DNA from: Candidatus Altimarinota bacterium
Lineage (GTDB): Bacteria; Patescibacteriota; Gracilibacteria; BD1-5; UBA6164
NCBI GenBank assembly: GCA_030683605.1
Contig: JAUXPL010000037.1
Location: 1 to 48,194, forward strand
Direction of reading: 5' to 3'
Length of the DNA stretch: 48,194 nucleotides
Shown here: positions 6,728 to 33,930 of the stretch, in pieces
How positions within the stretch are numbered: the stretch's first letter is position 1
Layout of the letters: the number at the start of each line of letters is the position of its first letter
Program-made: the position numbers and the translations under genes
The notes under the pieces: generated by a model
Databases searched by the model: none
What the model was told of the DNA's origin: nothing
What the model saw: only the letters and a program-made list of their open reading frames with translations

Positions 6728-9322
6728 TTAATATGTTCAATCATTGCTCATCTTTCATAAAAAAATATCATATGATGAACTACTTCTTGCAAATCAAATT
6801 CCAAATAAATTAAACCAACTAGATAAAAAATTTCATCAAACATATAGATTTCAATCACTATCAATATTTAATCATATAGCATTTTCTCATCCAGTTCATC
6901 AAGCTCTTTTTCACCATGTTAAATTTCAATTACTATCTAGTTTTATTAAAAATATATCATTTGATCAAAATGTAGTTAAACTATGTCCAAATACGGTTAC
7001 AGGATCATAATACTCTCAAAATATGAACACATTTCAGTTATCATCAACTTTAACAGATTTTCATGATTCACTTTGTCATGAAACAGATTGTTTTCACCAT
7101 ATTGCAGTTCATGATGAATTCAATTTTACTACATATGAGTTATAATAACTTCATGCATTAGTTAAATTTACTCACATAAAATCAGCATTTAATTGGTATC
7201 ATCATGTTATATATATATTTCAATCATTGTCTGTTGTAATAGATTCTCAAGTATCATATCAAGTACTTCATCAAGCTCTTTTTGACCAAACTCCAGATCA
7301 ACTAGTAGGATTTAATTTGCTTACATATATATCTGTAGCACTTGAATTTCAAGTCAAACTAAATCAAAATATATTAGCAGTTTGAGCAAAAGTACCTATA
7401 GCATACAAATTTCAATCATTATCTAAAGCTAAGTCATTAATATATTCACTTAATCAACCTGTTGTTTGTTTAAGCCATATTATATTTCAGTCTGAGTCTA
7501 GCTTTGCGATAAAACTACATGTATATCATCAAGGATTATAACTTGTTCAAAATAATGTTGCCCAAGCTGAAGTTCAACCAAATTCTCAAGCAAAATAAAT
7601 ATATCAATCATCTGAAATCTTAATTGCTTTTCATGTTTCTCATGTTGAACTAGAATTAGAACCTCACTTTTGTACCCAAATAAGATTTCAATCACTATCT
7701 AATTTTGCTATAAATAGATCACTACCTCATCATCAATAAGTAGTCATACTTTGTCAGAAGAAATCAGCTGTTCATACAAACTTTCATGTTAAATATACAT
7801 TTCAATCAGTATCTACTGCTACAGCTGTTCACTCGTCATGCCCTGTTCATCAGAATTTCTTAGCCCAAACCAAATCTCAATTAGGATTAATTTTTGCCAC
7901 AAATCAATCGTTATAATTTATATTTGTTGTTAATACTTGTCATAATATGTTTGTTGATTCTAAAAATTGTCAAGTAATATAAATATTTCAATTATTATCT
8001 ATAGTTTGTCAAAATATTCTGTCACTTCTTGTATCTCATATTTTTTTAGCAAAATATTTAACACATTTGTTTCAAACCTTTGAGAATCAACTATTACATG
8101 TAATATTAGTTAATTCATTATTTAAAAAAACACTTCAGTTACTGCATAATAATGTTCAACTAGATGTTTGATTTCAATTTGTTATACTTCAAGTTTTTGT
8201 TACTAGTATTGTATTTCAATGAAGTAGATCATTATAACTATATCAATTATTATTTCAGCTAGCACAATTTAAGTTGTTTATATTGTCTAAAGGAATACTT
8301 CATGCTAAATTATTATTTACGAAATTTGCTGCATATTTAATAGCTTCAGCTGAAGGTGCGTTAGTATTAATGTTTATTAATACCAAATTGGCTATTTCTC
8401 ATTTGTTATCAATTAATGATCAACTATAAGCATCTTGTAGTCATTTAATTAATTCAATTCTTGCACTTGAATCTATTTTGTTAGTTAAATTATTGCATGA
8501 TCAAGTATCAGAATAAGCAAGTAATTTACTTGTACTGAAATCAAATCATCAATCATATTTGAATTTGCTTGTTCTGAATGAAGATGGTAGATTTTTGTAA
8601 CCATTGTATACTAATCTTTTTTCATTAATAATTTGCTCTAAGTCGTTAATGTTAGTATCATTTGTAATAATAGTTGGCACAGTTAACATATTACAAGTAT
8701 TACCACTTAAACTTTTTGCAGTTAATCAATTATAGTTTCAAGTCACATATGCAGTCGCTTCAGTTGTTGCTGCATTAGCTACTATACCTATAAACTCAAG
8801 CCCTCACTCAGTCTCTCCCAAAGGGAGAGAAGAAGCTACATTATTCATTATTCATTTTTCATTATTCATTGATATAGTATCCCCTTCTATTATTCCTCAT
8901 ATTTCATATTCATTTTTATTATTTATAACTGAGTAAGTATATTCTTTATTAGTAGAAGGATCTAACGGTATTTTATTTAGTTTAGATAAATTAGCATGAA
9001 CAGTTTCTCAAATAGTTCATTGATTCCAAACTATTGCTCAACTATAAGTAATATTTACTCAAGCAGTAGGATTTGGATATTTTCCAGCTTCAAGATTAAA
9101 TAATTCTAGACTTGTTTTGATGCTTGATATATCACTTATTCTTGTACTGTCTCTAGCATCACTACTATATCATTGCAAACTAATAAATGCAATTGTTCAA
9201 AGAATTGCTAGGATTGTTATTACTACTATTAGCTCTACTAGGGTAAATCCTTTATTATTCTTCCCTTTTCAAGGGAAGTGCCTGAAAGGCGATGGGTTAC
9301 TTTGTATTTTTCTTTTATTCAT
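6728..9322 (-). CDS. Pilin-like surface protein with SBBP beta-propeller repeats
   Basis: This 864-residue protein starts with a prepilin leader followed by KGFTLVELIVVITILAIL, the type IV pilin/pseudopilin methylation motif and hydrophobic helix; cleavage is expected between G and F. A pilin-like head follows (about residues 45-300). The C-terminal half (about 430-864) has about nine SBBP-type repeats of the form DGNVYLTGKF...DLFIAKLDSDGNLIW, probably a beta-propeller. Nearly every Gly of DGN is TGA. The leader (about residues 8-21) and residues about 159-174 are encoded by palindromic elements. It is probably assembled with the type IV pilus machinery (PilT at 15055) and acts at the cell surface, perhaps in attachment. 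Confidence 0.85.
8799..8875. repeat. Palindromic element inside the pilin/SBBP gene
   Basis: The core TCTCTCCCAAAGGGAGAGA (8812-8830) is a GC-rich palindrome followed by GAAGCTACA, as in other copies, and by repeated ATTCATTATT units. It is read in frame and adds about 15-25 residues to the pilin-like head. Confidence 0.7.
9260..9299. repeat. Palindromic element inside the prepilin leader
   Basis: CTTCCCTTTTCAAGGGAAG (9260-9278) plus the tail GCCTGAAAGGCGATGGGTTA has the form of copies at 27866 and 30590. It encodes leader residues about 8-21 just before the pilin cleavage motif. Confidence 0.75.
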
Positions 9323-9360
9323 AATATTTAGTTTTATTAAAACAGATTTATTATACAAAA

Positions 9361-9393
9361 AAAACTAAAATATAAAAAATATATTTTAGTTTT
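9361..9393 (-). terminator. Intrinsic terminator
   Basis: AAAACTAAAATATA pairs with TATATTTTAGTTTT, flanked by T on the minus strand. It lies 18 bases past the stop of the gene at 9411-9923. Confidence 0.65.
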
Positions 9394-9410
9394 TTGATTG
9401 ACAGTTGATA

Positions 9411-9923
9411 TTAATTATCTTTTATAAGTTTATTAATTATTTGAACTATAAGTTTTTCTCATTCTTCTGAATTATTAGAAAAAAATGTTGTTCCAGGTGT
9501 TTTAATCTTATCTCAATAAAATTCTATCTGATAGTTCTTATTATCTTTACATATGAATATTAATCTTTTATAACTAATAGTAGGAATAAAGCTTCTAAAT
9601 TCTTCTCAATCTTCAGGTAATTTATTTAATAAACTAGACAAACTATTTATAATTTCACTATCTTTAATTATAAATTCTTTATTTACATTATCATCATTAG
9701 AATGTTTATATTCTTGAATAATTAACTCTTCACAATTAGAAATTCTAAAGCTTGTTTCTGTTTGAATACTTTTAACTCTTTTTTCTAATTCACTATATAT
9801 TATTTCTTTATTTGTATTATTGTTATTCATATATTTTTCTTGAATACTTTTAGATTTGTAATACATAAAACACGACACTAAAACAAAATTTATTACTAAT
9901 ATTATTATTACTTTCCAAAACAT
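9411..9923 (-). CDS. Single-pass membrane protein, unknown
   Basis: The 170-residue protein has one N-terminal membrane segment (VIIILVINFVLVSCFMYY), with a Cys that could only loosely be a lipobox, and then a soluble domain. A charged, probably helical stretch at residues 25-75 is followed by a compact region ending LIVQIINKLIKDN. Only three TGA Gly codons occur. The soluble part presumably faces outside. It is monocistronic, with a terminator after it. No family is recognised. Confidence 0.6.
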
Positions 9924-10004
9924 AATGTGTAAAATTAATTTATATTATAATGCATTATAAGTATTAATTATAATTGTAAAGATTTTTTGTTTAATTTATA
10001 ACAA

Positions 10005-12314
10005 CTATACTTTTCTAACAGGAGCAATTTTTATATTCATTTTTACTACTCATTTTCAGCTAAATGCAATTTCTGCCAATTCTCAGTTTAGTGATGTGAT
10101 TATTCAATTACCAAATTTAGGATGACTGACTCTATCTCCTCTTGCAAACATTGAAACATCATTATTTGCTTTCACTATTACTTTTGGTTTACCTGTAAAT
10201 CATCAACTAGTACTTCAGAAACTAAATGAATCACTACTTGAATCTGAACTTGTTCAAAATGAAAATCATCATTTATTCAAATATTCTCACAAATCATAGT
10301 TTACTAAGTATTCTAGAGGTATTTCTTTTAAAAATCTTGATTCAGGATTTCTCACAAAATCTCAGAAATTGAATCTCTCTTTTGCTCTAGATATGTATAA
10401 TTCTTCTCTCGCTCTAGTCATAGCTACATACATAAGTCTTCTTTCTTCTTCCAATGCTGCTTGTTCTCATATAGACCTAAAACTAGGGAAAAGTCATTCT
10501 TCTAATCATGTAACAAATACTCTTTTTTCTTCTAATCATTTAGATGTATGAATAGTCATCAATGTAACATAATCACTTCGCTCATCATTTTTATCCATAT
10601 CTGTTATCAAAGCCACTTCTTCTAGGAAAATTGCCAAACTCTCTCTTGGTTCCATTCAGTTATATTGTGTCGCTACATTTACTAGCTCATCAATATTTTC
10701 TAGTTTTGATTCTTTTTCCTCTTTACTTAGTCATTCTCATATGTATTCTTCATATTTTGTTAATTTTACTATTTCTCTAATTAGCTCAGCTACGATTTTT
10801 TTATGTGAAAAATGAACCAAGTCTTCAAATATTATATTGAAATTTTTGATTGCATTTTTAGCTCAGTTGTTTAGTTCTTCAACTTCATCTATATTCTCAA
10901 TAATTTGTGGGTAAGATAAGCCAAAATTATCTCTGTAATTATCCATTGTTTCAATTGATTTAGCTCATATTTTTCTAGTTGGTGTATTGATTATTCTCTT
11001 CATTGCTATTACATCATTTGGATTGTGGATTACTTTTAAATAACTTAATAAATCTTTTATTTCTTTTCTATCGTAGAATTTTTGACCTCATATTACTCTA
11101 TATGGTATATTTGCTATCATCAAGGCTTCTTCTATTTTTCTAGATTGAGCATTTGTACGGTACAATATTAAATTATCTTTGTAATTATTAATTACAGGAC
11201 ACCCACAAGGGGCATCCCTACATTTATCACATTGTAGGGGTTTCCCTTGTGGTAACCCTGAACTGGATTTATTTTTAATTATATTTACTATAATACTAGC
11301 TTCAGTTTTATCATCTGGTGCTTCTATATAACTAATATGTTCTCACTCACCATTATCTGTCCATAACTCTTTTTTGATACCTGATTTATTATTATTTATT
11401 ACTGCATTTGCTCATGCTATAATTTTTTTTGTTGATCTATAGTTTTGTTCTAGTTTTACTATTAATGCATCGTTGTAATCTTTTCTGAAATTTATTATAT
11501 TTCTCATATCTGCTCATCTCCAAGAATATATTGATTGGCTATCGTCTCATACAACAGCTAGATTATTATATTTACTTGCTAATAATTTCACTATTTCATA
11601 TTGTGGAGCATTTGTATCCTGATACTCATCCACCATCAGATATTTATATCTTTCTTGATACTCATTAAGTATTTTTGGAATTCTTAGTACTGCTAACGTT
11701 TTCACTAATATATCATCAAAATCCATAGCATTGTTTAAAGCTAAATCTTTTTCATATTCAATATAAGCTTTGTAGACTACTTCTTTTATACTAGAATCTA
11801 CTTCTGCCTCGTATCATTTTGCTGTTATTAAATTATTTTTTGCATTGCTTATAAAAAAAGCTATTTGTCTTGCGGGAAACTCTTTTTCATCTAGGTTAAA
11901 TCTATTTTTGAGAATATTTTTTAGTACTGATAATTTGTCTGATTCATCATATATTACGAAATCTTTTTTTAATCAGATAGCTAATTCATCTGATAAATAT
12001 CTAGATAATACGTCTTTTAGTACAAATATTCCTATCGAGTGAAAAGTACCAATAAGTGGAAAATTTGCTTTAGTATATACACTTCTAGGTGCTTCTACTC
12101 ATAGTGTTTTAGCTACTCTTTCCCTCATTTCTCATGCTGCTTTATTTGTAAATGTTACCATCATTATTTCTGACTGATTTATTCACTTATCTCTTATCAT
12201 ATAATTTACTCTAGCTGTAAGTGTAGCTGTTTTTCAACTACCAGCTCAAGCTATAATCAAAAGAGGTCAATCTATTTTGTTTTTTGCTTCTTCTTGTTTT
12301 GGGTTTAAATTCAT
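10005..12314 (-). CDS. pcrA: UvrD/PcrA-type superfamily 1 DNA helicase
   Basis: The 769-residue 3'-5' DNA helicase acts in repair and replication-fork upkeep. Helicase motifs in order: LIIAGAGSGKTATL (Walker A, about residue 21-34), [11 protein letters not shown] (Ia), VDEYQDTN (II), [15 protein letters not shown] (III), VKLEQNYRS (IV), [11 protein letters not shown] (V) and [10 protein letters not shown] (VI). Residues about 347-373 are encoded by a palindromic element (11195-11275) that sits in a loop just before [13 protein letters not shown]. The C-terminal tail is Ser/Gly-rich and then has a short [16 protein letters not shown] end like the PcrA/UvrD tail domain. The length is normal for the family apart from the insertion. 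Confidence 0.94.
11195..11275. repeat. Palindromic element inside pcrA
   Basis: CCACAAGGGGCATCCCTACA (11202-11221) is nearly complementary to the stretch ending at 11252, with a short AT-rich loop. It is far GC-richer than the surrounding gene. In frame it encodes a segment containing [13 protein letters not shown] and DAPCGCP that has no place in ordinary PcrA. Confidence 0.8.
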
Positions 12315-12401
12315 TTAACTTTTATTAATTATAATTTATATATAAAAGATATACATTTTTTTTGTTTATACAAAATTTTTTGAATTTTTATGTTAATAAA
12401 T

Positions 12402-12427
12402 AAAAGCCAAACATATGTTTAGCTTTT
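12402..12427 (-). terminator. Intrinsic terminator
   Basis: AAAAGC-C-AAACATATGTTT-A-GCTTTT forms a hairpin between the small membrane gene at 12464 and pcrA. Confidence 0.55.
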
Positions 12428-12463
12428 AAAATGAATAATTGAAATATAATAAATATTATTAAA

Positions 12464-12604
12464 CTATTTATTGTTTATCAATCTGACTAGGAATAATATA
12501 ATAGCAATAACAAGCAGAATATGTATAAAACCACCAATAGTATAAGAAGAGACAAGTCACAATACCCAAAGTATAATCAATATAATGGCAATAGTTTCTA
12601 GCAT
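12464..12604 (-). CDS. Small membrane protein, lmo0937 family
   Basis: The 46-residue protein MLETIAIILIILWVLG...GGFIHILLVIAIILFLVR has two membrane segments joined by a short loop with GGFIHILLV. This matches the lmo0937-type small membrane proteins, often linked to stress, whose role is unknown. One in-frame TGA codes for the Gly of VLGLV. It ends in TAG and is followed by a terminator. Confidence 0.75.
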
Positions 12605-12818
12605 AATAATAAAATTAGAAAATAAACCTGGACTTATATTATAATGATATATACTAAATAGCAATTAAATAATATAATTTTCTTATATTCCATAAAATTA
12701 TTTTAAAGGCATAATCTAATTTATAATTAAGAAATTTTGTATTTTAATTAATAATTTGACTTTAATAATTTTTTTATAATATTATTTCTCGCAAAAACAA
12801 ATACAAAAGGATTATATT

Positions 12819-13298
12819 ATGGTCGCAGTATTATTAAAAAAGACTGAGGTTAGAAATTATTTTAATTATTTTTTGGTTACTGGTTTGATATTTGCAGAAA
12901 TATCTAATATATTTTATTGGGGAATTATTCCATTACCAGAATTTTATGATATTTTTCTACTTGTAACACTTATATTGATAATTTTTGAACAATTAAATTT
13001 TTTTAAAACTAATAAATATTTTGCTAAATTATTATATTTAGGTTGTTTTAATAATTTTTTGTTTACATTTTTCTTTTTCGTTTGGGGTTATTTTGAACCT
13101 GAAAAAGATTTAAATTTTTTGTCTTTATTTGGTATACCAGTTGAAATACAAATGATTCTTGATGCATTATCTTTATACTCTTTGGCTTATGTAAGTAAAA
13201 GTTATGCAAAGATAATTGAATTAAGATTTATAAAACCATTTTATTTAAAAGTAATCTTGATGGAAACTCTATTGATGATTGCTGTTTATATATTATGA
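12819..13298 (+). CDS. Four-helix membrane protein that may stop at TGA
   Basis: The first 159 codons encode about four membrane segments and have no internal TGA; all six Gly are GGN. AAAGGA lies upstream as a Shine-Dalgarno, unusual in this window. TGA at 13296-13298 is followed within 9 bases by a terminator hairpin (13307-13334). If TGA is Gly here, as elsewhere, the frame continues 22 codons through the hairpin to TAG at 13365-13367, giving 182 residues. Either the gene came from a standard-code organism and has kept its stop, or the tail is translated. No family is recognised. Confidence 0.6.
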   Translation: MVAVLLKKTEVRNYFNYFLVTGLIFAEISNIFYWGIIPLPEFYDIFLLVTLILIIFEQLNFFKTNKYFAKLLYLGCFNNFLFTFFFFVWGYFEPEKDLNFLSLFGIPVEIQMILDALSLYSLAYVSKSYAKIIELRFIKPFYLKVILMETLLMIAVYIL

Positions 13299-13306
13299 AA
13301 AAATTT

Positions 13307-13334
13307 AGAAGTCCAAGAATTTTCTTGGACTTCT
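13307..13334 (+). terminator. Terminator after the four-helix membrane protein
   Basis: AGAAGTCCAAGA and its exact complement around a four-base loop, followed by ATTTTG. It lies inside the frame if the TGA at 13296 is read as Gly. Confidence 0.7.
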
Positions 13335-13411
13335 ATTTTGTATATTTATTATATTTGATTTTGTTAGCTTTTTTTATATACTGACACAAATTTAAAATTA
13401 ATAATTATTAG

Positions 13412-14965
13412 ATGATACAAATGTGAATTAAAAAAAATGATATATTAGAAAATATTTTAGTTGAAAAACTAGTTTTTTGAGGTAAATGATTTGCTAAGTT
13501 GAAACATGATAATCCAGATCTAGACTGAAGAGTAATATTTATTACAGGATGAGCAATACCTTGATCGATTGTTAATCTGAGAGTGATAAATAAAAAAAAA
13601 TCATATATTGAAACTCAAATTCTAGAAATAGTACATAAATCAGAAATTGAAATAGAAAATATAAATAATAAATATTGAATGTCTGGTGGATGGAAATGGA
13701 TAAATATTCCTTATGAAGAACAATTAAAAATAAAACAAGAACAAATAAAAGAATCACTAAATGTATTAAAAAATAAAATAAATCCTAAAATAACAGAAGA
13801 AAATCCAGAGTTAGCTGATATAAATTTATATGATGATTTATTTTTGCCTATTGAAACTTCGCCGGTAATTAATTGATACAGAAATAAAGTAGAATTTAGT
13901 TTTTGAAAATATTTATCATTCAAAAATGGGATAGAACAACATTTCAATGTAGGTTTTCATAAGCAGTGAGAATTCTCAAAAGTAGAAGATTATGACTGAG
14001 CTCCACTTATAGATGAGGAACAAAATGAAATATATAGAGAAATAAAAAAATTTAGTAAGACAGTATGATTGCCAGTATACGATCAAATGAAACAAGAGTG
14101 ATTTTTTAGACATATACTTATTAGAAAGACTCATTTTACTCAAGAAATGATGATACTTTTAAGTTTTAATCCTGAATATTTTGAAAAAAATACTAGTTTA
14201 GATAAAGATGAAAAATTAGCAATAATTAAATTTTTCTTAATTTGATTAGCGAGTAAATATCCAGTAATAAAATCTATTTATTTGTCTCATAATCCTAATA
14301 AAGCTGATGTTTGTATATGAGATCTAGAATTAATATATGGTGAAGCAACTATAAAAGAAAAAATACTTGATTTGACATTTAATATCTCTCCTACTTCATT
14401 TTTTCAAACTAATTCTAGCTGAGCTGAAAAATTGTATTCAATAGTTTTAGATTTTGCAAAAAATAAAACTAATTCTACAATACCTTTCTTTAGTAGAACG
14501 AAAGAAGATTTCAAAGATATGACAGTACTTGATTTGTATGGAGGGACATGAACTATATGAATGATATTTGCAAATGCGTGAGCCCAAAAAGTAATATCAG
14601 TAGAAATGGTTAATTCATCTAGTAAGGATTGAGAAGAAAATGCAAACCTGAATTGTTTAACTAATATAGAATTTGTAAATGCTAAAGTAGAAAAATTCTT
14701 AGAACAATATTTAGCAGAGTGAAATAAAGCTGATTTATTGGTAATAGATCCTCCAAGAGCTTGAATGCACCCTGACTCATTACCTAATATTTTGAAATTT
14801 GATACAAATCAAATAATTTATGTAAGTTGTAATCCAGCTACATTAGCAAGAGATTTATGATATATATTGGATAATTCTAATTATAAAATAGAAAAAATTC
14901 AAGCAATGGATATGTTTCCACATACTCATCATATAGAGACTGTTGTGAGTTTAATAAAGAGATAA
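13412..14965 (+). CDS. TrmA/RlmC/RlmD-family uracil-5 methyltransferase
   Basis: The 517-residue protein uses S-adenosylmethionine to methylate C5 of a uridine, most likely in 23S rRNA. An N-terminal TRAM-like segment (GGKGFAKL, GAIPGSIVNLRV) precedes INGYRNKVEFSFG. SPTSFFQTNSSGAEKLY, VLDLYGGTGTIG (SAM site), VIDPPRAGMHPD and IYVSCNPATLARDL follow; the Cys of YVSCNP is the nucleophile and the Glu near the end (HHIETVVSL) is the base. The usual Cys cluster for an iron-sulfur centre after the TRAM domain is absent. A second ATG at 13421 is also possible. The tRNA form (TrmA) cannot be ruled out. Confidence 0.9.
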
Positions 14966-15054
14966 TATACTCTTTATTTTTTTATCAATTATTTTACTTA
15001 TTAAAAATTATATGTTATAATATAATAAATATATATTTAATAATCATTATTTTA

Positions 15055-16152: not shown

Positions 16153-16159
16153 TTCCACC

Positions 16160-16273
16160 CCATAGTAAGGATTTAAGCCACCCCCTACCCCTCCTTAATA
16201 TTAGGGATGTAATAGCTAAAATCTTTTTTACCCAATCCCCCATTCTGGGACTTCCCCTTAATAAAGGGGGAAG
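16160..16273. repeat. Palindromic elements between pilT and the cNMP gene
   Basis: A block of GC-rich sequence with CCACCCCCTACCCCTCCTTA near its start and a final hairpin CTTCCCCTTAATAAAGGGGG (16251-16270) plus AAG. The stretch CCACCCCCTA...CCTCCTTA is repeated at 27190-27215 and, inverted, in the Trm11-like gene. Confidence 0.75.
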
Positions 16274-16294
16274 AAATAATAATGAATAATAAAT

Positions 16295-17192: not shown

Positions 17193-18185
17193 CTAGTTGT
17201 ATTTCTTCAGTAAATTAACAATTTCATATTCTTTTTTGACTCATTTATACATAGATTTGATACTCGGAGTACCACTTGCCAAAATCAGTTTATTTCAATG
17301 TAATTCTGTTATTTTTTCTGCTACTTCTATAGTATTATATCTAGGAGCTGAGTCTGAAATATATGAATTATCATGTTCTTCATCTATTATAATCAGTCAC
17401 AAATCATTGTATGGATAAAATATTGCAGATCTAGTTCATACGACGATTTTTGCATTAGAACTATTTATTTCTAGCCAATATTTAGTCTTGGTAGCATCTG
17501 TTATTGTAGAATTTAATATATATACATTATTTCAAAATACATCTTTTATTTTTGCTGCAAGTTGATTAGTTAATATTATTTCAGGTATCAAAAACAGAGT
17601 TTGTTTTCATTTATCTAGAGTCTCTTTTATCAACTTAATATATATTTCTGTCTTACCACTACCTGTTAAACCATATAATAATATTTTCTTGTTTTCTGTA
17701 GTTAGTATATTATTTAATACTTCATTTTGCTCACTAGAAAGAGTAATTTTATGATTAAATGTATACTCCATTTTTATACCAATTAAATTTTTCCCTTTTC
17801 CAAATGGAATCCCCACAGAGGGAGGGATTAATGAAATTTTGTCTTTTAAAATTCTATCTCTTAAATTTTTAGGAAAAAATAAATTTATACTATTATGAAT
17901 AGCAGTGAAATAATAACTAGCAATCCATCTAGCTAAATCGATTCTATATCAAGATAAAAAGATATTAGGGTTTTTGATACTTACTATAGATTTGATTTTT
18001 GATTCATCATATTCTCATCTAGGACTATCTGAAATATCTATAACGACTCATATTTCTATGAATTCTCTAATAGGTATTTCTATTATTTGTCATACTTTTA
18101 TATCAGCTACTAAAAAATCAGGAACAATATATGTAAGTCCTATATCATCAAAAGTCTTGGAAAATGGTGAAACTAATACATACAT
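17193..18185 (-). CDS. priA: PriA-like primosomal protein lacking the C-terminal half
   Basis: PriA restarts stalled forks. The 330-residue product has the N-terminal DNA-binding region (VSPFSKTFDDIGLTY, GQIIEIPIREFIEIG) and the first helicase domain: LLYGLTGSGKTEIY (Walker A, about 155-168), LIPEIILTNQLA, IVVGTRSAIFYPY, LIIIDEEHDNSYISD (DEEH box, Walker B) and ILASGTPSIKSM. It ends in TAG soon after, so the zinc-binding Cys and the second helicase domain are missing; normal PriA has about 700 residues. Residues about 118-132 come from a palindromic element. It follows dnaX by 6 bases. It may be a loader without helicase activity, or a decaying gene. Confidence 0.85.
17790..17832. repeat. Palindromic element inside priA
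   Basis: A GC-rich run (TTCCCTTTTCCAAATGGAAT, then CCCCACAGAGGGAGGGATTA) shares its start with TTCCCTTTCCAAGGGAAG copies. It encodes LIPPSVGIPFGKGKN between the N-terminal and helicase domains. It is more degenerate than other copies. Confidence 0.55.
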
Positions 18186-18191
18186 TTAAAT

Positions 18192-19653: not shown

Positions 19654-19700
19654 TAACCCTATCCTGAATCCTTTCCCTTAGATAAGGGCAAGGGGCTACA
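19654..19700. repeat. Palindromic element upstream of dnaX
   Basis: AACCCTATCCTGAATCCTTT then CCCTTA-GATAAGGGCAAGGGGCTACA. It is the reverse complement of the copies at 26470 and 33887. Confidence 0.8.
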
Positions 19701-19713
19701 ATTATTCTAAATG

Positions 19714-19787
19714 CAGCCTTCCTCCCTAATTTTAGGGAGGAAATTTATGACCGTAGGGTGGTATCCTGTGGACAAAGGTGGGTTATT
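19714..19787. repeat. Palindromic element between dnaX and murE
   Basis: The hairpin CTTCCTCCCTAATTTTAGGG/AGG is followed by CCGTAGGGTGGTATCCTGTG and GACAAAGGTGGGTTA. It matches, inverted, the long form at 25845 and 33805 that carries TTGTCCACAGGATAC. Confidence 0.8.
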
Positions 19788-24042: not shown

Positions 24043-24056
24043 TTTAAATATATTTT

Positions 24057-25844: not shown

Positions 25845-25915
25845 TAACCTCTCACTTGTCCACAGGATACACCTTCGGCTAAATTCCCTTCTCCTTATCA
25901 GGAGAAAGAGGCTCA
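25845..25915. repeat. Palindromic element upstream of rnpB, long form
   Basis: ACCTCTCACTTGTCCACAGG then ATACACCTTCGGCTAAATTC and the hairpin CTTCTCCTTATCAGGAGAAA, ending GAGGCT. The same sequence occurs inverted inside miaB (29620-29691). TTGTCCACA differs by one base from the DnaA box TTATCCACA. Confidence 0.85.
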
Positions 25916-25963
25916 TTAGATTATTTTTTTTAAAAATAAATTAGAAAAAAAAAGATTTTTATG

Positions 25964-25969
25964 TATAAT
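25964..25969 (+). promoter_or_regulatory. -10 box of rnpB
   Basis: TATAAT sits 6-8 bases before the expected 5' end of the RNase P RNA; TTAGAA at 25941 is a weak -35. Confidence 0.6.
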
Positions 25970-25972
25970 ACA

Positions 25973-26390: not shown

Positions 26391-26409
26391 TATAATTAAA
26401 ACACTTTAC

Positions 26410-26520
26410 TATTCCATCCTTGAATTCCTTCCTTTTATCAAAAAGGAAGGAGGCTACAATTAATTTATTGAGCCCCTTTCCTTTATGTAAAGGAAAGGAT
26501 TCAGGATAGGAATAGCATAA
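26410..26520. repeat. Inverted pair of palindromic elements
   Basis: Copy one: CCATCCTTGAATTCCTTCCT...AAGGAAGGAGGCTACAA. Copy two in reverse: TTGAGCCCCTTTCCTTTATG...AAAGGAAAGGATTCAGGATAG. The two copies are about 12 bases apart and together could form a long cruciform between rnpB and adk. Confidence 0.85.
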
Positions 26521-26539
26521 TTAAACTTAACAATATAAA

Positions 26540-27157
26540 ATGAAAATAGTTTTTACATGAATCCAATGATGTGGTAAATGAACACAAGCTAGATTATTGG
26601 TAGAAAAATATGGTTTTACATTACTTGAAATGTGAAACGAATTCAGAAAATTAGTTGCATCATGATCAGAGCTTTGAAACAAAGTGAAACAAATAATTGA
26701 ATCATGAGCTCAAGTTGATTCAGATTTATGAAAAGAAATAATGGAAAATGTCCTAAAAAATCAAACATCAGAAAAAATAATATATGATTGATTTATTAGA
26801 AACGAATGGAATAAAGCAATATTTGATAGAATATTACCAGACTATAAAGTATTATTCTTTGACTTATCAGTAGAAAAAGCAAAAGCAAGACTTTTAGGTA
26901 GAATGTTTGATAAAACTACTGGTGAAACATTTATATCTTGAACTACTCATAATCCAAAAACGGGAGAAGAATTAGTAAAAAGAGAAGATGATAAAGATGA
27001 AAAAGCAGTTATTAAAAGAATACAAGAATACGAAGATAAAACTCTTCCAATAGTAGAAATACAAAAAAAAGAATGAAAAATAATAGAAGTATCAGCAAAT
27101 GATACTATAGAAAATATTCATAGTGTGATTGTTGAAAAATTAGGTCTAAATAACTAA
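26540..27157 (+). CDS. adk: Adenylate kinase
   Basis: The 205-residue enzyme converts AMP and ATP to two ADP in the cytoplasm. MKIVFTGIQGCGKGTQARLL is the P-loop start, with three of its Gly encoded by TGA. MGNEFRKLVASGSELG is the AMP-binding lid region, IIYDGFIRN replaces the usual LDGFPR, RLLGRMFDKTTGE opens the LID, and KREDDKDEKAVIKRIQEYEDKTLPI closes it. The Phe/Ile changes in GFIRN are unusual (Pro lost). No zinc Cys are present in the LID. Confidence 0.9.
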
Positions 27158-27162
27158 GTCAA

Positions 27163-27228
27163 CTTATCCTCCAGCTTATCAAGGCAACAGACCACCCCCT
27201 AACCCCCTCCTTAGTAAGGAGGGGGGAA
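27163..27228. repeat. Palindromic element between adk and the Trm11-like gene
   Basis: CCACCCCCTAACCCCCTCCT then TAGTAAGGAGGGGGGAATA, very like the copy inside the next gene (27661) but inverted. Confidence 0.85.
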
Positions 27229-27250
27229 TAATACACTATAAGGATAAAAT

Positions 27251-28525
27251 ATGATTTGATTTCAATTGGGTAGAGAATATAAACTAAGTGTTGCAGAAAT
27301 ATTAGTAGTTTTTCCACTTGGGAAGACTGTTTATTTAAGTAATGATTTTTTAATATTAGAAAATTTAGATAAAGAAGAAGTTTTAAAAAAAGCTAACAAT
27401 CTATGATGAACTATCAAAGTAGTAGAAATAGTTAACTCAAGTGTAGCTAGTGAAGCTGAATGATATGAATGAAAATTTAAGTACTGAATAAGTATTTTTT
27501 GAGAAAAGAAAAATCTGAAATCAATATTAGTATGAATTAAAAAAGAACTAAAAGAATTGTGAGTATCATCTAGATTTATTAACAAGGATTTTCAAAATCT
27601 AAGCTCAGCACAAATACTATGAGAAAAATTATTGAAATCTCAAACAGATTACAACCTTATATTCCCCCGCCTTACTAAGGAGGGGGCTAGGGGGTGGTCT
27701 AATATTAGGGAAGAAAAATTAGGGAATTATTTTTTCTGAAAAACTATTTGGATACAAGATATATTCAACTATTCAAAAAGAGACTATGAAAAAGACAGAG
27801 ATATGCAGACTGGTATGCTACCTCCAAAATTGTGTCAAATGATGATAAACATTGCATCTTTTACTCTTCCCTTTTTATCCGAAGGTGTATCCTTTAGGGC
27901 AAGGGAAGTACCCGAAGGAGGATGGGTTAAAACCGACAATCAACATGTAATATACGACCCATTTGTATGATTATGAACGGTATTGATAGAATCTATTTTG
28001 ATGTGAAATAAGTCAGTTTATGGTAGTGATTTGAATGAAAAAATGGTAGAACATACGAAAAATAATATAATTAATTTTTGTAATAATGAAGATATTAAAT
28101 TAGAAAATCTAGAAATAGTCAAATTGAATGCAAAATTTATAGAAGAATCAGAATTTTTCAAAAAAGGAGTTGACTCAATAGTAACAGAGTGATATTTGTG
28201 AGAAGTAATGACTCAAAATAATATCTCACTAGATAGAATAGACAAACAAAAAAAATCATTACTAGAATTGTATGATAGATTCTTTGAATGATTAAAAAAG
28301 ATAAAATATTCATGAAATCTGGTAATATGTTTTCCTTTCTGGGAAATGAAATGAAAATACATATATTTTATTGAAATATATGATTTGCTAAAAAAATATT
28401 GTAATATCGAATCAATGTATCCAGCATATTATTCAGAAATATCTGCTACTAAAGCTGGAAGTTTACTATATAAAAGGGATAAACAATTAGTATGAAGAGA
28501 AATATTCAAACTAACTATAAAATAA
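27251..28525 (+). CDS. Trm11/THUMP-like RNA guanine-N2 methyltransferase
   Basis: The 424-residue SAM enzyme has the layout of Trm11-type methyltransferases. A degraded N-terminal domain (MIGFQLGREYKLSVAEI; SSRFINKDFQNLSSAQI) is followed by IWIQDIFNYSKRDYEKDRD and QTGMLPPKLCQMMINIA, the linker typical of the group, then YDPFVGLGTVLIESILMG (SAM loop) and GSDLNEKMVEHT. The catalytic (D/N)-P-P-Y place reads DSIVTEGYLGE, a TEPYLG-like motif with Gly (TGA) for Pro. Two palindromic elements encode residues about 137-152 and 205-227. The substrate is probably tRNA. It shares a terminator with the convergent gene at 28568. Confidence 0.82.
27661..27700. repeat. Palindromic element 1 inside the Trm11-like gene
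   Basis: ATTCCCCCGCCTTACTAAGG then AGGGGGCTAGGGGGTGGTCT. It encodes FPRLTKEGARGW just before the conserved QDIFNYSKRD block. It is almost the same sequence as the intergenic copy at 27190. Confidence 0.85.
27866..27932. repeat. Palindromic element 2 inside the Trm11-like gene
   Basis: CTTCCCTTTTTATCCGAAGG, TGTATCCTTTAGGGCAAGGG, AAGTACCCGAAGGAGGATGG. It encodes LPFLSEGVSFRAREVPEGGW between MINIA and the SAM loop. Its tail matches the copies at 9260 and 30590. Confidence 0.85.
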
Positions 28526-28549
28526 AAGTGTAGAAATTTCTACACTTTT
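28524..28549. terminator. Bidirectional terminator
   Basis: AAAAGTGTAGAAA and its exact complement, with T runs outward on both strands; shared by the convergent genes ending at 28525 and 28568. Confidence 0.85.
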
Positions 28550-28567
28550 ATTTTATTTGAAAAAATT

Positions 28568-28840
28568 TTATCTACCATCCATTCAATCTAAATCTCTTTG
28601 TAATTCTCTTGATCTGTTTTTGGTATTTGACCCTACTCAGTCAATCAAACTATCAGTATCTCATTTTATTCATGATACACCGTTTAAAACATCATCTGAT
28701 TTTAATAATACATTTTTATTAAAATTAGTTCATGTTAATTCATCTATTGAAGTTCATATATTTGGATACACTTTTACTAAAGCAACATAAAAAACAACAA
28801 TCATTAATAGAGTAGCTAGTATTTTTATTAATTTTATCAT
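28568..28840 (-). CDS. Small single-pass membrane protein, unknown
   Basis: The 90-residue protein MIKLIKILATLLMIVVFYVALV has one N-terminal membrane segment or uncleaved signal, then a polar tail rich in Asp, Ser and Gly (mostly TGA) ending RELQRDLDGMDGR. It lies 89 bases downstream of miaB and may be co-transcribed with it. No family is recognised. Confidence 0.55.
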
Positions 28841-28929
28841 AGCTTGATATTATATATTAAACTTTACAATTCTATCTATTTTTTAGATTATGCAAAAAAA
28901 AATGACTTTACAAATTATGTATAATCATT

Positions 28930-30456
28930 TTAAATATCAATATATTCTCCTAAAAGTACATATCTGTGTAACTCTGTTATTTTTACATCTACTAAATCTC
29001 ATATATTTACTCATTTTACTTTTGGAAAATATATTTCTTTGAAATTCCTAGTTCTTCAGAAATATTCTTCATCTTTTTCTCATGAAATAAGTATTTTTTC
29101 TACACTTCATATCATTGCAGTATTTCTTTTAGTTACAGATTCTAATAATAAATCATTTAATTTATGCCATCTTTCAGCTTTTGTATCATTACTTATATCA
29201 TCTGGATATATTTTTTCAGCGATTGTTCATTTCCTCACACTATATCTAGCATTGAAAACAAAATCAAATTCACATTCTTCAAATGCTTTTACAGTTTCTA
29301 GAAACATTTCCTCTGTTTCTCATGAATATCAAACGATTATATCAGTAGAAATAGAAAAATATGGATCTCTAGTTCTTAAGTATTCAATCATTTTCTTGAA
29401 ATCATTGTAACTATGTTTTCTGTTCATTCTTTTAAGCATTTTATCAGAACCAGATTGTAATGCAAAGTGTAAGTAATTACACATCTTATCCAATTCAAAA
29501 TGAGCATCCAATATATCTTGAGTCATATCATGAGGATTAGAACTAGTAAATCTGATTCTATCCAATCATTCTATTTTATTTATTTCATCCAAAAGTTGCC
29601 TAAATGGTGATTTAAAACATGTAGCCTCTTTCTCCTGATAAGGAGAAGGGAATTTAGCCGAAGGTGTATCCTGTGGACAAGAGAGAGGTTTTATATTCCA
29701 CTTTCCTTTTTCTTCATTCCAATATTTTCTATCTACCCATTGTTTACCGTATGAATTTACATTTTGACCTACTAAAGTAATCTCTTTTGCACCATTTTTT
29801 ACAGCTTCTTTTGCTTCATTTACTATATCTTCTATACTTCTACTATTTTCTTTTCATCTCGTGTAAGGCACAATACAAAATGTACAATAATTATCACATC
29901 CAGTTTGAATTATGATTGTAGCTTGTGCTGGATTTTCTCTAAGTTGTTTTGATTTCAAATAGTCATCAAATGATGAATCATTTCAAATAGCTTCTTTTAA
30001 TATATGAGTCAATATTAATGGTAAATATTTAGTATCCTCTATTCTAAGTGTGAAATCTAGTTTTCATTCTGATCTAGGAAATAATTTATCATCATTATTA
30101 AAAATTGCACTATCATTATTTACTAGTGTAATATTCTTAGCTTTGTTTTTATCTCTTTTGTAATCATTTAAATATTTAGCATCAATTCAAGTCTTTCTCA
30201 CCATACAACCTGTAATTCAAACTAGAATATTTTTTTTATTTTTTTTATTTTCTCTACTGATATCTGTAAGCATACCAAAAACTCTATCTTCTCATTTTTG
30301 TCTAACTGAACATGTATTAAAAATCACTAAATCTGCATCTTTCCAATCATTTATTTTCACAAAACCTGACTGTAGTAAAATCATATTGATTTTTTCGCTA
30401 TCAGCTTGATTCATAGCACATCCAAATGTCTGTATATAATATTTTCTAAGTGTCAT
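28930..30456 (-). CDS. miaB: tRNA-2-methylthio-N6-isopentenyladenosine synthase MiaB
   Basis: The 508-residue radical-SAM methylthiotransferase modifies A37 of t[23 protein letters not shown] is the MTTase N-terminal domain with its first Cys; further Cys lie at NTCSVR and [19 protein letters not shown] holds the CxxxCxxC that binds the radical-SAM cluster. [41 protein letters not shown] and TDIIVGYSGETEEMF are typical MiaB blocks, and the end ([15 protein letters not shown]) is a TRAM domain. Residues about 256-279 come from a palindromic element between NSYG and the SPFRQLL helix, which explains part of the length above the usual 440-480. Confidence 0.94.
29620..29691. repeat. Palindromic element inside miaB, long form
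   Basis: Reverse complement of the rnpB-upstream copy (25845-25915), identical over most of its length, including TTGTCCACAGGATACACC. In frame it encodes a stretch containing [20 protein letters not shown]. Confidence 0.9.
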
Positions 30457-30480
30457 TATTTATTTTTCTATATAAGTATT

Positions 30481-30644
30481 TCAAAGGGTTAAAACCCTTT
30501 GTTGAAATGTATCTACCCCTACCCCCCTGCGGGGTATACCCCAAGAGTACTTCCTTCGGGGCGCCCCCCCTGAAAGGGGCAGAAAATTTTCTTCCCTTTC
30601 CAAGGGAAGTACTCGTAACGCTGTGAAGAGGGATGGGTTAGAAC
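30481..30644. repeat. Cluster of palindromic elements upstream of miaB
   Basis: Three hairpins: CAAAGGGTTAAAACCCTTTG (30483-30502); a CG-rich block with CCCCTGCGGGG and TTCCTTCGGGGCGCCCCCCC (30520-30590); and CTTCCCTTTCCAAGGGAAGT (30591-30610) plus the tail AGGGATGGGTTA. This fills most of the 280 bases between miaB and the deaminase gene. Confidence 0.8.
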
Positions 30645-30706
30645 CAAAGTACACATGTGTTAAGAAAAATCAGAAAGCTAAATAATTCTTTTGATTTGTA
30701 TGTTCA

Positions 30707-30730
30707 ACAGAGGGCTTCAGCCCTTTGTTT
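30707..30730. repeat. Short GCTTCAGC-type hairpin
   Basis: AACAGAGGGCTTCAGCCCTT then TGTT, six bases from the deaminase stop. It resembles the copies at 39200 and 39249 and may serve as its terminator. Confidence 0.65.
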
Positions 30731-30735
30731 TGTGG

Positions 30736-31170
30736 TTAATGTATTTGTATTGATTCTCATCCACAATCTTTTATAAATTTTTCTGCTTCTTCTCATGTAT
30801 AGTGTTTGTATTTTTCTTTATAAACTATTCTTTTTATTCAAGCAGCAATTATAGCTCTAGTACAGTCAAAACATGGCTGATAAGTGGAATACAGAGTTGC
30901 TCATTCTATTTTAATACCATTTCTAGCTGCCCAAATAAGAGCATTCATTTCAGCATGTATTTCGTATTTATAAGACCAGTCATGATGGTCTTTTGTATAT
31001 TCTCACTTCCAATAATCACAACAATTTATATATCAAGCTGGAGTGCCATTGTAACCTGTAGACAATATTCTATTTTCTTTTACAATTACAGCTCAAGTAT
31101 GTTTTGATACGCATTTTGATCAAGTTGCAATCTCATATGCGATATTCATAAAATTAATATCATTTAGCAT
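30736..31170 (-). CDS. dCMP deaminase / cytidine-deoxycytidylate deaminase family
   Basis: The 144-residue zinc deaminase converts dCMP to dUMP, the route to dTMP. EIHAEMNAL carries the zinc His and catalytic Glu; YQPCFDCTRAIIAAGIKRIVY has the two zinc Cys. SKCVSKHTGAVIVKENRILSTGYNGTP is the standard N-terminal part. Overlapping TGA-coded Gly include TGAV and PAGY. The ATG is 2 bases downstream of the TAA of the membrane coiled-coil gene, so they form an operon. Confidence 0.92.
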
Positions 31171-31172
31171 AA

Positions 31173-31592
31173 TTAATAATTAGTTATTCAAGTATTTGTA
31201 ATAGTTCCAGTATTTGTAAAATTTTCTGTTATTTCATTAATACCTTCTATTATATTCCTTGTAGTATTTATTGCTCATGTTGCTTTATCTATTGTTTGTT
31301 TAGTCTCATCTATTGTAGTCTTAATTTCTTCATAAGTAGTTTTGACTTCTTCATATCAATTTTTTACTTCTTCATATGTTTTTTTTGTCTTAAATAAAGT
31401 CTCTCTAATTGAATCTATTTTTGCTTTTGTTATATGTAATCAATGAATAAAATGTTCAGAAAAATCATTTATTCAATCAAATTTTGAGAACGATTCATTA
31501 GATACATTATATCTGTATTTTGATTTATTATTAATATATACATAAAGTATAATAATCAATAATATCAAAATAATAAATATTTTTTTAATCAT
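31173..31592 (-). CDS. Membrane-anchored coiled-coil protein
   Basis: The 139-residue protein starts MIKKIFIILILLIIILYVYI (membrane anchor) and then has a long helical part with imperfect heptads and a 7-residue repeat YEEVKNG-YEEVKTT-YEEIKTT (residues about 72-95), likely a coiled coil, ending in a Thr/Asn-rich tail. It precedes the deaminase gene by 2 bases. No family is recognised. Confidence 0.6.
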
Positions 31593-31602
31593 GAAACAAA
31601 TT

Positions 31603-31642
31603 AAAAAATAAAGTATATTTTTGTAAATATACTTTATTTTTT
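31603..31642 (-). terminator. Intrinsic terminator
   Basis: AAAAAATAAAGTATATTT pairs with AAATATACTTTATTTTTT. On the minus strand it follows the zinc-ribbon gene stop by 14 bases. Confidence 0.75.
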
Positions 31643-31655
31643 AAAATAATCAATT

Positions 31656-32027
31656 TTAATTATTATCTCAGAATAAATCAGTAACATTAAATTGCTCTTT
31701 TTTTAAATCTTTATTTAGATTAACAATAATATCATCCTTTATAATAGACTGTTTAGATATTAAATTTGCATTCAATGCAATAAGAGATTTTTTTATTTTT
31801 TCTATATTTTCTTGATTCAATCATTTATTTGATAATTCTAGAGATAATATCTCTGTTTTTATCATAGAATGTTTACCACAATTAAAACATTCTATATCTA
31901 TATTAATTGTAGATCAAGCTGCTCAAATAATATCTATATTAGTTTCATTTACTTCGCTTGAACATTCTGGACATTTATAAGATACTATGATTGATTCAAT
32001 CATTCATTTAAGTGATTGGAAATTCAT
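31656..32027 (-). CDS. Zinc-ribbon protein, unknown
   Basis: The 123-residue protein has YKCPECSSEVNET and, 25 residues later, ECFNCGKHSM, i.e. two CxxC pairs that should bind one zinc. The C-terminal 70 residues are helical and charged (KIKKSLIALNANLISKQ). It lies downstream of gltX on the same strand. No family is recognised; a nucleic-acid-binding or protein-binding role is plausible only. Confidence 0.6.
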
Positions 32028-32120
32028 CTTTTTCTAAATTATATTTTAAAATCATTCTAATTATACTATAAAATACTATAAATTTCAAGATTAAATGTTA
32101 AAAATATATTGACAATTATA

Positions 32121-33719
32121 TTATATATATTTTAATACTTTTTCTATTCTGTTTATTGATTTTTCAATTCACAATATATAAATTAATTCTAAAGCTCATG
32201 GGGAAAATAGTTCTCCACTAAGTGCACATCTAACTGGCCATAATACTTGACCATTTTTCATATCTGCTTCAATTATTTTTTCTACAAATATATCTTTTAC
32301 ATCATTTATAGATTCAAAATCACTTGTTCTAGATTTCAAAATATCGATTGCAATATTTAATGCTTTGTTAACAGTATCTAAATCTGTTATTTTCATCTTT
32401 TCGTTTAAAAGCATCTCATGAGTTGGAATATTAGAATCTGTATAAAAGAAAAATGAGTTTTCATTGAATTCATCAAATTTTCTAATCTTTGTTTTTAATT
32501 CACCTAGAATTCTTTTATTATATTCTTCAGGGTAATAAGATAATTTTGATAATAAATCTACATCATAATTTTCCAAATATCTGATAAATTTTTCATACAA
32601 TTTATCTGTTTCCATATTTTTTATTATGACTGAGTTAACCCAGTTCAATTTATCCATATCAACTAATGCTCACGCAGTATTTATCTTTTCAAACTTGAAA
32701 TCATAATCTAAATATGAAGTATTTAGGTTTTGTTTTCTCCAGTCTTCAAATCCTGAATTGATAATATTTGATAAGAAATCAAGAATAGATTCAATCAAGT
32801 ATCATGCTTTGAAATAGTATTCTACATCAGCTTCTGGATCTTTTCTCTTTGAGAGTTTTCTTTTACCATTTCAATCTAGTTTCACAAGCGGTCAGTAATG
32901 TGCATATTTAGGTGCTTGCCAAGACATCATATTGAATAATTCTAGATGCAATGGAAGTGATGCAAACCATTCGTCTCATCTGATTACATGAGTAGTTCAC
33001 ATCAAATAGTCATCTATCAAATGTGCAAAATGATAAGTAGGGATACCTGTACTTTTGCATATAACAATATCTAGGAAATTTTCTCAACTAGTTATCCTTC
33101 ATTTTATAATATCTAGCAAATCTATTTTTCTAGATATTTCTCATTTTGATTTAAGTCTAATAACAAATTCTTTTTTCTCATCTAAAGCTTTTATTATTTC
33201 ATCATCTGTAGCAAATCTCCATGGAGAATATTCTTTGTAAATACCTGTTGGTAATTTTGATGCTTCTTGTATTTCTCTTGTTTGAGTAATTTCTTGCTCA
33301 GTTAAAAAACAAGGATATGCAAGTCATTTTTTTACTAAATCTTTTATAAATACTTTATAAATATTTTCTCTTTGAGACTGAGTATATGGTCAATAATTTC
33401 ATACATCTTTATAATCTTCCCCTACTGGTCCCTCATCAAAAATTAATCAAAATTGTTTAAGTATATCTACATATTTATGTGCAGCTCATTCTACTTCTCT
33501 TTTTTGATCAGTATCTTCTATTCTTAAAAAAAATACTCAATTATTCTTATATGCAATTATCTTATCTAGCATAGCAGAATATACTGCTCAAATATGCAAA
33601 AATCCTGTAGGAGAAGGAGCTATTCTAGTCACAACAGTTAGGGGATTTCTTCTAGGATATTTACTTATAATATCTTCTGGTGTCTCATTTATATCTGGGA
33701 ATAATAAATTTTCTATCAT
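32121..33719 (-). CDS. gltX: Glutamyl-tRNA synthetase
   Basis: The 532-residue class I synthetase charges tRNA-Glu. TRIAPSPTGFLHIGAVYSAM contains the HIGH-type motif, FLRIEDTDQKREVEGA the Glu-binding strand, [23 protein letters not shown] the specificity region, and GNGKRKLSKRKDPEADVEYY the KLSKR (KMSKS-type) loop. The C-terminal anticodon domain ends EKVLKYI. The extra residues 18-30 before the active-site strand (DIISKYPRRNPL) are typical of some CPR versions. It may also charge tRNA-Gln if no GlnRS exists; this cannot be told here. Confidence 0.94.
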
Positions 33720-33804
33720 AACAATTTTAATTTTTATTGGTTAATATTTAGCTATAATAATTATATTTTACATAATTACAAGAAAAAATAAATCATATTT
33801 ACAT

Positions 33805-33930
33805 AACTCACCCTTGTCCACAGGATACACATTCGGATAAATTCCCTCTCTTACTTTATAGAGGGAGGACCAATAAATTATTATTTGTAGCCCCTTTCTC
33901 TTAAGTAAGAGAAAGGATACAGGATAGAGT
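33805..33930. repeat. Pair of palindromic elements between gltX and clpP
   Basis: Copy one (33805-33872): CTCACCCTTGTCCACAGGAT, ACACATTCGGATAAATTCCC, TCTCTTACTTTATAGAGGGA. Copy two, inverted (33887-33930): TTGTAGCCCCTTTCTCTTAA, GTAAGAGAAAGGATACAGGA, TAG. The rest of this 290-base intergenic region is plain AT-rich sequence. Confidence 0.88.

Follow-up and report, generated by a model that had tools for sequence, protein, structure and literature searches.

Palindromic elements in frame within conserved genes of a Candidatus Altimarinota bacterium and their association with a DUF559 nuclease gene

Palindromic repeats that enter bacterial genes have been described in several systems. Rickettsia palindromic elements (RPEs) are, in extracts of two papers (PMC10969869, PMC3733652), dispersed palindromes of genes and spacers that lie in frame and are tolerated by housekeeping proteins. 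Repetitive extragenic palindromes (REPs) of the GTAG and CGTC types, described together with REP-associated tyrosine transposases (RAYTs), are short hairpins that form dimers with the tags facing and also have intragenic copies. The extracts of the 2013 paper (PMC3733652) name helicase genes among the hosts of such copies, the occurrence of differing REPs at nearly one position of Xanthomonas recB, a GTAG tag in more than 90% of members for most families, and some gene-entering palindromic repeats, including the Rickettsia CGTC repeats, without a dedicated transposase. In the present work, similar elements were studied in a 48,194-nucleotide contig (JAUXPL010000037.1, hereafter the window) of a Candidatus Altimarinota bacterium (the source genome), together with the DUF559 nuclease genes that lie between such palindromes. 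GC-rich mobile palindromes of AT-rich genomes are also known as the GC clusters of yeast mitochondria (including var1) and as fungal double-hairpin elements; some of these lie in frame in a gene and some near homing endonuclease reading frames. Unlike the mitochondrial GC clusters, the elements described here belong to a bacterial chromosome, form many families and have a nuclease gene between their ends.

The RecQ gene of the source genome contains a DUF559 domain (PF04480) in frame between two palindromes. The unit composed of a hairpin, a DUF559 gene and a second hairpin is well supported, both in this clade and in other phyla. The palindromes of the window are probably the terminal inverted repeats (TIRs) of this mobile unit, or internally deleted copies of it resembling miniature inverted-repeat transposable elements (MITEs), and the unit appears to invade conserved genes in frame. 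Profile and homologue searches of relatives covered 59 genomes, including the source genome, a 1.54-Mb draft (57 contigs, 96.6% complete) in which the window is contig C25. DUF559 was found in 34 of the 59 genomes, with 5 copies in the source genome and 15 in its congener G002. Palindromes within 140 bp bound the DUF559 gene on both sides at 17 of 30 clade loci and on one side at 11; the corresponding values were 6 and 52 for 138 control open reading frames (ORFs) and 1 and 27 for 300 random positions. Counted as a palindrome on at least one side, this amounts to 28/30 loci versus 58/138 and 28/300.

The two flanks of a DUF559 gene are more alike in inverted than in direct orientation at 42 of 49 loci (these 30 and 20 more, with the exception of L341, which is cut by a contig end). 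When sites with two hairpins are counted apart, the window contains 19 palindromes, 18 of which match a DUF559 flank at E 0.01 and 13 at 1e-5. Random segments from relatives, equal in number and nearly equal in total length, matched 0–7 of the 19. In the opposite direction, 64 of the 98 flanks match a window palindrome versus 0–4 of 98 random segments (20 draws), where 5 of the 49 loci belong to the source genome and the random pool held none from it. Six more inserts (miaB of G001 and G004, pcrA and trmA of G002, a DUF4012 gene of G004 and recG of the source genome) all match DUF559 flanks. The RecG insert of the source genome is 85% identical over 92 nt to the flank on the left of the RecQ DUF559 in that genome, and the G001 miaB insert is 92% identical over 53 nt to a DUF559 flank of the same genome.

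The GC-rich hairpins stand out against a background of about 24% GC, and hairpin scans recovered them between and within genes of the window at the places given by the initial annotation. A 348-kb genome sample, consisting of the window and the starts of 20 contigs picked without regard to the elements, contains 61 hairpins (stem ≥ 6 bp, ≥ 65% GC), and each of three Markov controls contained one; a stricter census (stem ≥ 9) gave 23 hairpins versus 0 in the controls. After merging, 68 hairpin elements remained, 16 of them inside ORFs of at least 100 aa. Dispersed palindromes occur in both coding and non-coding DNA of the genome. The family that includes the miaB copy was designated family A. 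The miaB copy (29623-29690) is 99% identical over 68 nt to an intergenic copy (25846-25913), which bears out the observation that coding and intergenic copies match. The genome yields 42 family A matches with BLAST and at least 73 copies with a covariance model (85 candidates scored), so that a lack of further copies, a possible ground for doubt, does not apply. The model found 62, 58 and 37 matches in three congeners, and 22 of the 59 genomes have family A matches, including one genome that does not belong to the bacterial family. The unit is 47 or about 70 nt long; the short form (AACCTCTCTCT-TGAATTC..) coexists with long forms bearing an extra hairpin between TTG and AATTC. The DUF559 gene of G030 is bounded by one family A end and, on the opposite side, one family B end (by eye). 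Adjacent family A copies (≤ 100 nt apart) face each other at the GCTACA end in 7 of 7 pairs of the sequence examined, looking as if that unit had lost its gene.

The mobile, RPE-like character first proposed for these elements stands as an analogy: they are dispersed and read in frame within proteins, and the comparison with RPEs is apt. The proposal was incomplete: REPs are also close, and the paired ends, the nested modules and the DUF559 nuclease partner, the point that is new over the earlier reading, had been missed. By the descriptions cited above, RPEs are about 150 bp long, whereas the present elements measure about 40–130 bp, are built of exchangeable hairpin modules and are tied to DUF559. 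Among 14 open-access papers listed for DUF559, no title or abstract opening linked it to palindromes; subscription journals were outside this scope, so absence from print does not follow.

Site alignments demonstrate an in-frame insert, and an orthologue without the segment, for pcrA, priA, miaB and both sites of the Trm11-like methyltransferase gene. These cases, together with the pilin/SBBP site at 8799, agree with the in-frame placement claimed at the outset. The coding status of the second pilin/SBBP site (~9260) is uncertain, as this palindrome precedes the prepilin signal and may lie before the true start codon. Net lengths of filled versus empty sites are multiples of three: 69 nt (against G002) or 72 nt (against G014) in miaB and, against G004, 75 nt in pcrA and 51 and 81 nt in the methyltransferase gene. 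Three congeners, G004, G001 and G002, are collinear with the window; G004 is a closer relative than G002 over most of it. The pcrA site is empty in G004 and G001 and holds a different palindrome in G002; the insert falls where the alignment to the solved PcrA (1pjr) lacks 21 residues, and the palindrome folds far below shuffles (z −4.3). The first methyltransferase insert is absent in G004, G001 and G019 and represented by a decayed copy in G002, and the second is absent in G004 and G001, with an unrelated stretch in G002. The priA insert, a weak palindrome, corresponds to a 14-residue gap in G004. G004 carries a related, altered element at the pilin/SBBP 8799 site.

Matches to miaB were obtained in all 59 genomes, in a few of them merely to a fragment or paralogue. 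The insert is absent in G002 and in most of 30 loci aligned, and two other palindromes occupy the same place in G004 and G001. Since most aligned MiaB orthologues are without the inserted residues, an objection based on residues shared by orthologues fails. Converse inserts are present in a TrmA-like gene of G002 and in the DUF4012 gene of G004. Outside the window, a TatD insert is missing from ten relatives, and Tex has two insert sites, one of which holds at least four different palindromes across genomes (by eye) and none in others. At the second Tex site (L107) and in G002 (L154), a 47-nt element is identical in both genomes while the flanking codons differ, which hints at possible transfer or conversion of the element. 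Other ORFs that bear hairpins, recorded by hairpin presence alone, include tRNA synthetase types (Thr, Met, Cys), NAD-dependent DNA ligase, pyruvate formate lyase and UDP-glucose dehydrogenase. All 12 intragenic family A copies with E ≤ 1.3e-7 have one orientation, and of two weak partial copies one is opposite. With one N-terminal copy excluded, 11 of 11 share the orientation, the chance of which is about 0.002 given open frames, some of the hosts being related. UGA encodes glycine in the genes of the window; in the ATP-binding loop of PcrA, for instance, it specifies G23 and G27, which align with glycines in solved PcrA. Family A gains open frames from this reading of UGA (237/468 under code 25 vs 198/468 under code 11).

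The open frame runs from the host gene into DUF559 at 20 of the 30 clade loci and continues through the host at 19. The host is RecG at eight loci, one of them broken (tblastn; Pfam for one), MiaB at three (G036, G053 and G054), where DUF559 lies in the same loop as the window palindrome, and MnmA at one locus by Pfam; three further host genes are, judging by their motifs, presumably also MnmA. The remaining hosts are RecQ, TsaD, RarA-type, QueH-type and RsmB genes. In RecG, three states of one site were found among 15 aligned genomes. The site is empty in seven (G002, G004, G007, G016, G021, G032 and G044), contains palindrome, DUF559 and palindrome in frame in another seven (G001, G012, G014, G019, G022, G026 and G047), and in the source genome holds the palindrome pair without a nuclease, the insert measuring about 60 residues. 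In a sixteenth RecG, from G025, the frame breaks shortly after DUF559. The site falls between helicase motifs I and Ia. On the right side, the host sequence resumes at identical bases in the source genome and G002. Thus, DUF559 repeatedly occupies the same conserved RecG site (7 of the 15 genomes). No single clade unites the DUF559s carried by RecG: six host changes occur on the tree, 0 of 200 bootstrap trees had just one, and supported branches force at least two, with some RecG DUF559s adjoining those in RecQ, TsaD or RarA. The DUF559 tree means several putative entries into RecG, or moves out of it. The MiaB loop of G043, G005 and G024 (L056, L059 and L060), genomes of other genera, holds a domain of about 200 residues that appears, from its motif by eye, to be HAD-phosphatase-like; its ends have no palindrome, and it is therefore a separate matter.

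Alignment of 18 DUF559 sequences, from the clade and elsewhere, showed invariant R, T, E, W, F, RQ, DF, E-D-G-H (ExDGxxH), D and R. The DUF559 profile matches the structures 3hrl, an endonuclease-like protein (E 3.7e-32), and 3r3p, deposited as ‘Mobile intron protein’ (E 2.2e-5), which we take to be I-Bth0305I; of five members compared with NCBIfam, one had a Vsr match, below threshold. An extract of PMC9403480 places a DUF559 gene in the EDxHD family. The domain is best explained as a putative nuclease of the Vsr/EDxHD homing-endonuclease type. Like EDxHD homing endonucleases (I-Bth0305I) and the inteins and homing endonuclease genes that invade conserved genes, the present system combines a sequence relation to a mobile-intron protein with repeated occupation of a conserved gene site. 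Unlike homing introns and inteins, the nuclease frame lies inside the host protein, the palindromes serve as linkers, and nuclease-free copies abound. No Pfam intein splicing domain was found in seven host proteins or in RecQ, and no group I or II intron was detected, as Rfam gave no match at gathering score in 20 loci. Self-splicing was ruled out for the loci scanned, where neither intron RNA nor intein domain was found, and no splicing seems involved.

We infer that the nuclease is the driver of movement. DUF559 would nick or cut either an empty target or a hairpin, after which the unit would be copied in by repair. Insertions in needed genes would survive only if in frame and in a tolerant loop, the surviving palindromes being read as peptide linkers (e.g., PHPNPLLKGEG..). 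Once the nuclease gene is lost, a pair of ends would be left, and continued loss would reduce this pair to one hairpin, the state seen in miaB.

Several points weigh against this interpretation. Cleavage, homing and transposition are deduced from sequence, and DUF559 could be a passenger on palindromes moved otherwise. The 30 clade loci are the best match per genome in 30 genomes and not a random draw, and the palindrome threshold was fixed before the counts, yet after flanks had been read by eye. Palindromes stand on one side only at the 11 clade loci mentioned and on neither side at 2 of 30; for the loci from other genomes described below, the respective values are 7 and 2 of 30. The flanks are more alike in direct than in inverted orientation at 7 of the 49 loci. 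In the congener G003, which is 81% complete, family A has a single weak match and DUF559 none. No DUF559 flank matches the pcrA palindrome, the sole unlinked element of the window, and no genome-wide search was made with it. The homologous first methyltransferase insert of the source genome and G002 is absent in the closer G004, so that loss or transfer is needed. Finally, in the G002 copies bounded by an outer TIR, a transposase may do the moving.

An origin as REPs moved in trans by a RAYT (a Y1 HUH transposase), which would insert single-stranded hairpins without target duplication and carry DUF559 as an occasional passenger, is unlikely, though it agrees with several features. Family A often ends in TGTAGC, a GTAG-like tag, and paired copies carry that end inside. 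The 57 family A copies examined for target duplication showed none (direct repeats averaged 3.28 vs 3.19 in the control), and Y1 transposases score above the cut-off in 17 of the 59 genomes. However, no Y1 gene was found in the 96.6% draft of the source genome or in G002, G003 and G004, and G001 has a sub-threshold fragment. The 25 Y1 loci inspected include a single one with a family C hairpin in its vicinity and lack family A and B ends. The tag falls far short of most copies, being intact in at least 39 (at most 45) of 78 distinct ones, below the share of over 90% expected of GTAG REPs. In addition, the GTAG REP unit is 20–40 bp long, against 47 or ~70 nt for family A and 20–21 nt for the nested module alone, and the RAYT gene of GTAG REPs is flanked by repeats, an arrangement not encountered in this 96.6% complete draft. 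REPs have a Y1 transposase as partner, whereas the present elements have an EDxHD/Vsr-type nuclease, an inconstant tag and longer, modular units. A RAYT was set aside as the mover, PF01797 not having been found in the source genome and the Y1 loci of relatives lacking family A or B ends.

It is equally doubtful that DUF559 units merely land in pre-existing palindromes. A hairpin module of 20–21 nt, CCNGCTAAAGACNGGACNCG, has 16 copies in the source genome and 7 in G002, whereas 37 other genomes contain none. All 23 copies are nested in the loop of another hairpin, mostly at TT^A or TT^G, and 9 of the 23 sit in the loop of an identical-type module (both by eye). A partial copy of the module lies at 104-150 of the window, near the contig start. 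The G002 DUF559 copy L350, which is TIR-bounded and has 8-bp repeats, is inserted in a family A element. Hairpins therefore do attract insertions, and the nested module suggests that hairpin loops may themselves be targets. However, the DUF559 flanks are two hairpins, mostly in inverted order, and not halves of one, and many relatives have RecG and MiaB sites that are simply empty, with no palindrome.

Seven near-identical DUF559 units of G002 (L349, L350, L351, L352, L355, L356 and L357) lie within an extra 23-bp TIR, GGCATAATCTAAATTTTGGTGGA, five of them with exact 8-bp direct repeats (by eye). This would suit a derivation as MITEs from a conventional DDE insertion sequence carrying DUF559 as cargo, an explanation that is nevertheless improbable. 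The TIR lies outside the palindromes and was not seen in the other DUF559 flanks inspected. Target duplication, expected of DDE-type MITEs, was not found at family A copies, and a TIR with duplications was found for the G002 outer TIR only. The latter shows that other vehicles can apparently pick up the unit composed of hairpins and DUF559.

In the main stem of family A, 96.5% of cells are paired. The idea that the hairpins are host-selected RNA or DNA structures (terminators, mRNA stabilisers or recombination signals), with in-gene copies as rare accidents, has very little probability: strong covariation in this stem (120 two-sided changes vs 32 in shuffles) and placement closer to 3′ than to 5′ gene ends (median 51 vs 110 nt) favour it, but elements turn over fast at corresponding spacers among congeners, 16 of the 68 elements lie in ORFs, and 13 one-sided versus 120 two-sided changes, from which the arms are seen to change together, are more in keeping with the copying of arms or the swapping of modules than with RNA selection in single steps. 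In a spacer common to the source genome and G004, both stems differ and the surrounding boxes are kept. Spacers contain 37 tandem, 6 divergent and 3 convergent elements, over 30, 11 and 3 kb, respectively, with no clear bias apart from fewer elements in divergent spacers. An assembly artefact is unlikely, given the same pattern in several genomes.

Family C is not confined to this lineage. At least 113 bacterial genome stretches carry its pattern, in which 29 bases are fixed; by record title, the matches listed include the Candidate Phyla Radiation, Cyanobacteria, Bacteroidota, Zixibacteria, Chloroflexi and Proteobacteria. Within the first 80 loci (83 matches), 14 are in ORFs of at least 100 aa, in one orientation, and 12 of the 14 use the PHPNPLL frame. 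The ten hosts scanned include exonuclease VII, MiaB-type, GAPDH and GidA-type genes, and in Gracilibacteria the hosts include RsmB and KsgA-type genes. DUF559 is present in 25 of 30 family C genomes, hand-picked from those loci for breadth, versus 2 of 14 control genomes. Palindromes lie within 160 bp on both sides at 21 of 30 DUF559 loci found via other genomes and on one side at 7; for 234 control placements made within these loci, the counts were 5 and 58. Three of these 30 loci are Gracilibacteria (L383 repeats L324), and outside this group both sides are occupied at 18 of 27. Fifteen of the at least 113 family C stretches also hold DUF559, in 13 cases within 260 bp of the palindrome, one being a weak fragment.

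The chances are about even that these units represent a pan-bacterial class of elements, in frame in conserved genes and living inside the host protein with no splicing device, which leaves nuclease-free linkers and of which many orphan REPs and MITEs would be the remains. The nuclease gene between palindromes across phyla is a testable candidate driver for gene-entering repeats. If true, this would explain inserts of the PHPNPLLKGEG type in helicases and RNA-modifying enzymes, would amount to an intein-like strategy without splicing, and would provide a natural record of protein loops that accept new peptides. In a Gastranaerophilales genome (L204), a UvrD-type ORF has both a DUF559 domain and a PHPNPLLKERE insert. 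Phage carriage was set aside, two exact patterns having had no match in viral_contigs; two Campylobacter phage records contain a family C-like stretch.

Table 1. Palindromic elements of the window and the miaB gene.
Feature	Position	Strand or arrangement	Remarks
Palindrome, in frame in pilin/SBBP gene (ORF 6728-9358)	8799..8845	-	matches DUF559 flank L317
D-type palindrome at start of pilin/SBBP ORF	9240..9290	-	matches DUF559 flank L344
Multi-stem palindrome, in frame in pcrA (ORF 10005-12314)	11190..11268	-	strong palindrome
Intergenic palindromes	16180..16275		weaker DUF559-flank matches, E 0.003 and 5e-5
D-type element, in frame in priA (ORF 17193-18185)	17784..17831	-	matches 20 DUF559 flanks
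Paired-end element	19654..19785		outer ends TAACCC..GGGTTA; matches DUF559 flanks L353, L348
Intergenic palindrome	24005..24046		matches 10 DUF559 flanks
Family A intergenic palindrome	25846..25916	+	absent in G001, sole relative aligned there
Paired-end element adjoining RNase P RNA	26400..26520		outer ends CTATTCC..GGAATAG
Family C intergenic palindrome	27185..27230	+	matches DUF559 flank L318, 91% over 46 nt
Family C palindrome, in frame in Trm11-like methyltransferase (ORF 27251-28525)	27655..27705	+	matches DUF559 flank L318
Family D-type palindrome, in frame in Trm11-like methyltransferase	27870..27930	+	matches DUF559 flank L344
miaB host gene	28930..30456	-	508 aa (code 25); Pfam, TIGR00089/TIGR01574
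Family A palindrome, in frame in miaB	29620..29690	-	99% identity to intergenic copy
Intergenic cluster of D-type palindromes	30500..30640		absent in G004, G001; matches DUF559 flank L356
Paired-end (MITE-like) element	33804..33932	A end 33804-33873(+), B end 33886-33932(-)	outer ends TAACTC..GAGTTA

Two of the paired-end elements (Table 1) were compared further. The element at 33804..33932 is absent in G004 and G002, and both its ends match DUF559 flanks. Both halves of the element adjoining the RNase P RNA match the upstream flank of the G002 DUF559 gene L353 with 100% identity, over 53 and 46 nt, respectively, and G004 has different stems at the corresponding locus. The PriA ORF of the window encodes only about 330 aa (the 3′BD and DEAD part) and is similarly short in G004, G001 and G002; the short form is therefore common to these congeners and not a frameshift of the source genome.

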